In this document: piece after piece, positions 28,877 through 42,274 of the stretch
Numbering within the stretch: position 1 is the stretch's first letter
How the letters are laid out: every line of letters begins with the position of its first letter
Assembly (NCBI GenBank): GCA_034670405.1
Contig: JAXDDX010000011.1
Span: 7,315,001-7,379,000, forward strand
Direction of reading: 5' to 3'
From: Hoplostethus atlanticus
Taxonomy: Eukaryota > Chordata > Actinopteri > Trachichthyiformes > Trachichthyidae
Length of the DNA: 64,000 bases
Position numbers and translations under genes: made by a program
The notes under the pieces: generated by a model
Told to the model about the DNA's origin: nothing
Seen by the model: only the letters and a program-made list of their open reading frames with translations
Databases searched by the model: none

Positions 28877-42274
<13,398 letters not shown>

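Follow-up and report, generated by a model that had tools for sequence, protein, structure and literature searches.

The window, the whole 64-kb stretch of Hoplostethus atlanticus DNA analysed here, contained tfap2d and, downstream of it, a complete tfap2b gene. The tfap2b product carried the TF_AP-2 domain (PF03299, E = 1.2e-80). It scored 470.8 bits against PDB 8j0q (AP-2-beta) vs. 427.6 bits against 8j0k (AP-2-alpha), a margin that serves as a guide only, as the two chains differ in length. Part of the last exon alone gave 125.9 bits for AP-2-beta vs. 123.1 bits for AP-2-alpha. Exon 1a together with the first 20 residues of exon 2 was identical to the AP-2beta peptide printed in PMC4154645. 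Exons 2–7 formed a common body of 421 residues, which can be preceded by either of two first exons. The features were as follows:

28877..28924, + strand: exon 1a, 16 residues, with the VKYE sumoylation-type motif and a GTAACG donor
30351..30950, no strand: CpG-rich stretch over the presumed 1b promoter/5′ UTR, from 300-bp windows
30628..30659, + strand: noncoding block, candidate 1b promoter or regulatory element, also present upstream of tfap2a exon 1b
30896..30922, + strand: exon 1b, coding part, MLVHSYSTT, from frame, shuffles, paralogues and genome pattern
30923..30928, + strand: exon 1b splice donor GTGAGT, phase 0, best of the 161 GTs of intron 1
31324..31764, + strand: exon 2, common to both isoforms, DRHDG..., with the PPPY motif
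33500..33551, + strand: exon 3
35208..35427, + strand: exon 4
35955..36073, + strand: exon 5
37321..37462, + strand: exon 6
41983..42274, + strand: exon 7 with the stop codon

The AP-2beta peptide of PMC4154645 has an extension, MHSPPRDQAAI, which was absent here: no in-frame Met occurred between the nearest upstream stop and the exon 1a start. A GA repeat (28726–28818) lay just upstream of that start. The tandem neighbor tfap2d ran upstream of tfap2b from 6447 to about 20110, its last exon not being located. Its first exon (from 6447, 13 residues) had a GTAATG donor and joined IRHDG, and it also showed LVH ahead of the exon 1/2 junction. AP-2delta has been described as possibly similar to isoform 1b (PMC3219183).

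The coding part of exon 1b (30896–30922, + strand) read ATGTTAGTTCATTCCTACTCCACCACG and encoded MLVHSYSTT. A GTGAGT donor began at 30923 directly after these codons in phase 0, and the DRHDG of exon 2 began at 31324 with an AG acceptor before it. The first-pass annotation had proposed this nine-codon frame, its phase-0 donor and its junction with DRHDG, and the coordinates and the sequence proved exact. The exon lay between exon 1a (28877) and exon 2 (31324), and the same order was found in tfap2a. As in other exons of the 1b kind, there was a nine-codon ATG frame with an MLVH start, an aromatic residue at position 6 and Ser at position 7. In intron 1 (28925–31323, + strand), it was the sole ATG frame of at most 60 codons that ran in phase 0 into a near-consensus donor (GTRAGN or GTRNGT). 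A single ATG-to-donor frame in this intron is by itself not rare, and frames of 4–40 codons from ATG to GTRAGT occurred at a mean of 0.30 per shuffle of intron 1. The rare part was the peptide match: nine-codon frames that opened with ATG and shared six or more of the nine residues of MLVHSFSAM appeared in 7 of 5000 dinucleotide shuffles of intron 1, and in 1 of 5000 when a following GT was also required. The exon 1b donor ranked first among the GTs of the intron and scored 6.14 vs. 2.32 for the exon 1a donor; donors and acceptors were scored with a simple weight matrix of generic splice-site frequencies.

The reference peptide MLVHSFSAM is printed for UniProt P05549-5, human TFAP2A (PMC6418405), and the tfap2a 1b exon of the same fish genome encoded the identical nine residues, which bore out the likeness to TFAP2A noted earlier. 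Isoforms 1a, 1b, and 1c of TFAP2A arise from alternative first exons, and both Xenopus tropicalis and zebrafish have homologs of them (Berlato et al., 2011, PMC3219183). In that paper, TFAP2A 1b is aligned with TFAP2B isoform 1b (EST BM727695), TFAP2D, and TFAP2E, the TFAP2B isoform being named in the Figure 1d legend as well as in the Discussion; AP-2beta ESTs are given for both 1a and 1b, AP-2epsilon is said to resemble isoform 1b, and 1b is suggested to be the most ancient form (PMC3219183). Human TFAP2B isoform 1b represents the same gene and the same kind of exon, a likeness drawn from its description in PMC3219183 and not from residues. Because an EST of this human isoform has already been published, exon 1b of the fish does not define a new isoform class. 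By its position and sequence, it is the orthologue of an exon already reported. No report of a fish tfap2b 1b was found among the matches listed in the open-access literature.

TFAP2A 1b (P05549-5, orthologous to murine isoform 3) likewise consists of nine codons with a phase-0 donor between 1a and exon 2; it shares 6/9 residues with tfap2b 1b, and neither has the KYE sumoylation site. However, it belongs to a paralogous gene, it contains another in-frame Met, which stands in strong context, and its donor in this fish genome was GTAAGT instead of GTGAGT. The first exon of TFAP2E, MLVHTYSAM, has nine homologous codons and a GTGAGT donor and is identical to tfap2b 1b at 6/9 residues.

A Pfam search of the 633-Mb genome gave 19 exon matches on four contigs, namely C11, which carries both genes of the window, C12, C35, and C6. 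For each paralogue on the last three contigs, 30 kb were examined, from the DNA-binding exons upstream. The gene on C12 was named tfap2a from its N-terminus and from part of its last exon, which fitted AP-2-alpha slightly best (124.5 vs. 122.0 bits). From their starts, we take the gene on C6 to be tfap2e and that on C35 to be tfap2c. The last exons of both fitted AP-2-beta slightly better than AP-2-alpha; there was no gamma or epsilon chain among the matches, so the chains do not name these genes.

In tfap2a, exon 1a encoded MLWKLTDNIKYEECE, and exon 1b (MLVHSFSAM, with a phase-0 donor) was located 529 nt before exon 2. Exon 1c, upstream of 1a, encoded MSIMGKMGEWQ and had a GTATGT donor (L026–L028, index 21709 in the joined reverse complement). 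The tfap2e gene contained the nine-codon MLVHTYSAM exon with a phase-0 donor. In the 30-kb stretch of tfap2c, 1a alone was seen, and a search for exon 1b found none (best 5/9 residues, no donor). Exon 1c of the MSILAKMGDWQ type, a peptide given for TFAP2A in PMC6418405, was sought in the window for tfap2b and was not found (best 5/11 residues, no donor). The motifs used detected no KYE-type exon 1a in the tfap2e stretch, of which 5000 of 30000 bases were N. About 950 nt upstream of the MLVHTYSAM exon (L030, C6:9146353, − strand), a frame read SAIMLWKSRTKTEPYG, which has AIMLWK in common with the AP-2beta 1a start and lacks KYE; this frame either arose by chance or is a remnant of exon 1a.

The pattern ATGYTNGTNCAYWSNTWYWSN(6N)GTRAG, which was framed before the paralogue sequences were read, had three matches in the 632.8 Mb of the genome, and these were the 1b-type exons of tfap2a, tfap2b, and tfap2e; the reversed pattern had 0. 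Six to ten of 24 bases differed between the three exons. The residues kept or conservatively exchanged numbered 7/8 for tfap2b and tfap2a (10/24 bases changed, P = 0.0008), 7/8 for tfap2b and tfap2e (P = 0.003), and 8/8 for tfap2a and tfap2e (P = 0.0003), each P value referring to random placement of an equal number of base changes and the conservative classes (S/T, F/Y, A/T, A/S) having been chosen with the sequences in view. Exact identity alone was weaker (P from 0.016 to 0.042; 5/8 kept between tfap2b and tfap2a, P = 0.016). In a local DNA alignment of intron 1 with tfap2a and tfap2e, exon 1b had the top bit score (27.4, E 0.2), and the next matches reached 26.5 bits. The human TFAP2A 1b primer matched the tfap2a 1b exon of this genome at 23/25 bases. 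Its first 13 bases matched tfap2b 1b and nowhere else on the + strand of the window; over all 25 bases, 17 matched tfap2b 1b, a number also reached at window position 48406. A search for relatives in the genome_contigs collection gave 75 stretches that matched a pattern, of which 0 were confirmed by tblastn.

The three 1b exons differed in their possible start codons. The first ATG stood in weak context in tfap2a, tfap2b, and tfap2e, with C at −3 and T at +4 in tfap2b. Codon 9 was ATG in strong context in tfap2a and tfap2e, whereas in tfap2b it was ACG (Thr), likewise in strong context (ACCACGG). Further along the spliced tfap2b 1b message, the next ATG was out of frame. The second in-frame ATG of TFAP2A-1b may be its main start, and the Met at position 9 has been reported as conserved across species (PMC3219183). 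Its absence from tfap2b was taken as variation within the exon family and not as a defining feature. Three outcomes are left for tfap2b 1b: initiation at the first ATG, initiation at the ACG in ACCACGG, or a low yield of protein. Short ORFs of 10, 3, and 19 codons (30653–30862) began at upstream ATGs, located at 30653, 30747, and 30803, which could hamper the translation of 1b should the cap site be farther upstream.

A GC-rich block had also been noted ahead of exon 1b. It was present but modest: the 300-bp windows starting at 30351–30651 had GC contents of 0.51–0.54 and CpG observed/expected ratios of 0.79–1.16 (0.53 and 1.10 for 30500–30800), and 107 of the 1275 such windows across the 64 kb also passed the island-like threshold. 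Simple patterns detected no TATA box, CCAAT box or GCCN3-4GGC site in 30000–30896. A second CpG-rich block of intron 1 (29451–30000; CpG observed/expected 0.85–1.10, GC 0.52–0.57) is unexplained by exon 1b, and the sole GCCN4GGC site found in 28500–31400 was situated inside it at 29665.

The best local match between the regions upstream of the tfap2b and tfap2a 1b exons covered 32 bp in tfap2b and 35 bp in tfap2a, and it started 268 and 457 nt before the respective ATG. Its score of 33 was reached by 1 of 1000 shuffles and by none of the 468 segments taken from the paralogues, but by 35 of the 525 unmasked window segments; the best 8 of those 35 were all on tracts classed as simple repeats. 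With repeats masked, which hid part of the tfap2a side of the block too, the block scored 28; none of the 526 segments then attained 33, and two of them, which overlapped at one place, scored 29. The exact pattern of the block core occurred at these two genomic places only, with 0 control matches; because the pattern was built from both places, only the lack of other matches is informative. The block was not found in the tfap2e stretch, and the upstream comparisons of tfap2b and tfap2a with tfap2e yielded different short matches (P = 0.028 and 0.084, respectively). The block is consistent with an inherited promoter element, the controls being good but not unanimous.

Three other explanations of the nine codons were considered. 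One is that a chance frame lies beside a chance donor. Nine codons are short, 0.30 ATG-to-GTRAGT frames are expected per shuffle of the intron, and the 18-base pattern for MLVHSY matched two unrelated genomic places. However, neither of these places had a nine-codon frame with a donor, and their contigs carried no AP-2 match; the peptide match was rare in the shuffles, and all three genome-wide matches of the exon pattern fell in AP-2 genes. This last result refutes chance in practice, and we give the chance reading almost no weight. It is also improbable that exon 1b is a relic, real in the AP-2 ancestor and no longer transcribed in tfap2b of H. atlanticus. Such a loss would agree with the second Met, which is absent only from tfap2b among the three genes and is in strong context in the other two, and with the weak context of the remaining ATG. 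On the other hand, the donor is still the top one of intron 1, seven of residues 2–9 are kept or conservative although 10/24 bases differ from tfap2a, and the common upstream block is intact.

Very unlikely, too, is a 27-nt cassette microexon (AG-ATG...ACG-GT) placed between exon 2 and a preceding exon, which would be either 1a or a noncoding one upstream. CAG stands directly before the ATG in tfap2b, tfap2a, and tfap2e, the 27 nt make up whole codons, and the exon would begin and end in phase 0. As an acceptor, however, 30896 scored −8.65 vs. 1.1 to 8.8 for the six real acceptors of tfap2b (same simple matrix; tfap2b only), and it ranked 92nd among the 133 AGs of intron 1, with further AGs just upstream. 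TFAP2A 1b has moreover been treated as a first exon, and its primer starts with AG before the ATG (PMC3219183). Given the poor acceptor, exon 1b is best read as a first exon rather than a cassette microexon.

We therefore consider it very probable that 30896–30922 is the coding part of tfap2b exon 1b, an alternative first exon of ancient origin within the AP-2 family that would have its own promoter in intron 1 and would allow escape from SUMO-linked repression. The transcription of the exon, its promoter and the functional difference of isoform 1b are inferred. The missing good acceptor, the CpG-rich stretch and the block common with tfap2a suggest that a second tfap2b promoter is present in intron 1. 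Human TFAP2B promoters p1, p2, p3, and p9 have been given from CAGE data (PMC5704063).

In the proposed course, the transcript would start at this promoter within intron 1, and splicing from 30922 to 31324 would give an AP-2beta of 430 residues that begins with MLVHSYSTT instead of the 16 residues of exon 1a. The body with PPPY and with the DNA-binding and dimerisation region would be unchanged, and the N-terminal VKYE would be lost. In the predicted isoform sequences, VKYE was the sole psi-K-x-E/D match of isoform 1a; it was missing from the 430 residues of isoform 1b, and PPPY was kept, which confirmed what the first-pass annotation had expected of this isoform. Judged by position, VKYE is the counterpart of the IKYE repression site of TFAP2A-1a. 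Repression has been reported for TFAP2A 1a only and not for 1b or 1c, and it needs lysine 10 in IKYE; the ERBB2 promoter was activated more strongly by TFAP2A 1b and 1c (PMC3219183). A slower band of AP-2beta has been interpreted as the sumoylated protein (PMC4154645). By analogy with TFAP2A 1a and 1b, isoform 1b of tfap2b should escape SUMO-dependent repression and activate more purely or more strongly.

The exon fixes an easily missed start of a regulator of neural crest, kidney and eye. Within a single genome, tfap2a and tfap2b both appear to encode two alternative forms, of which one carries the N-terminal SUMO-type site and the other lacks it. Reviews, in their accessible portions, name other AP-2beta isoforms and not 1b; knock-outs or morpholinos directed at exon 1a would therefore miss 1b. 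The common upstream block offers a specific element open to testing. A bolder reading, which we hold only tentatively and rate somewhat short of even, is that the 1b promoter is an AP-2 relic from before the duplication, marked in tfap2a and tfap2b alike by the block (ATTAATATTCCTGTAA...AGTCATGAATA type), so that one ancestral element would drive a SUMO-insensitive isoform from the two paralogues in parallel, and that the internal start of tfap2b 1b has become ACG in strong context, forcing the use of the first ATG or of a rare non-AUG start.

The tRNA and Rfam scans of the window each gave 0 matches. A 45-bp tandem repeat in seven copies was located at 61707–62019, near the end of the window.
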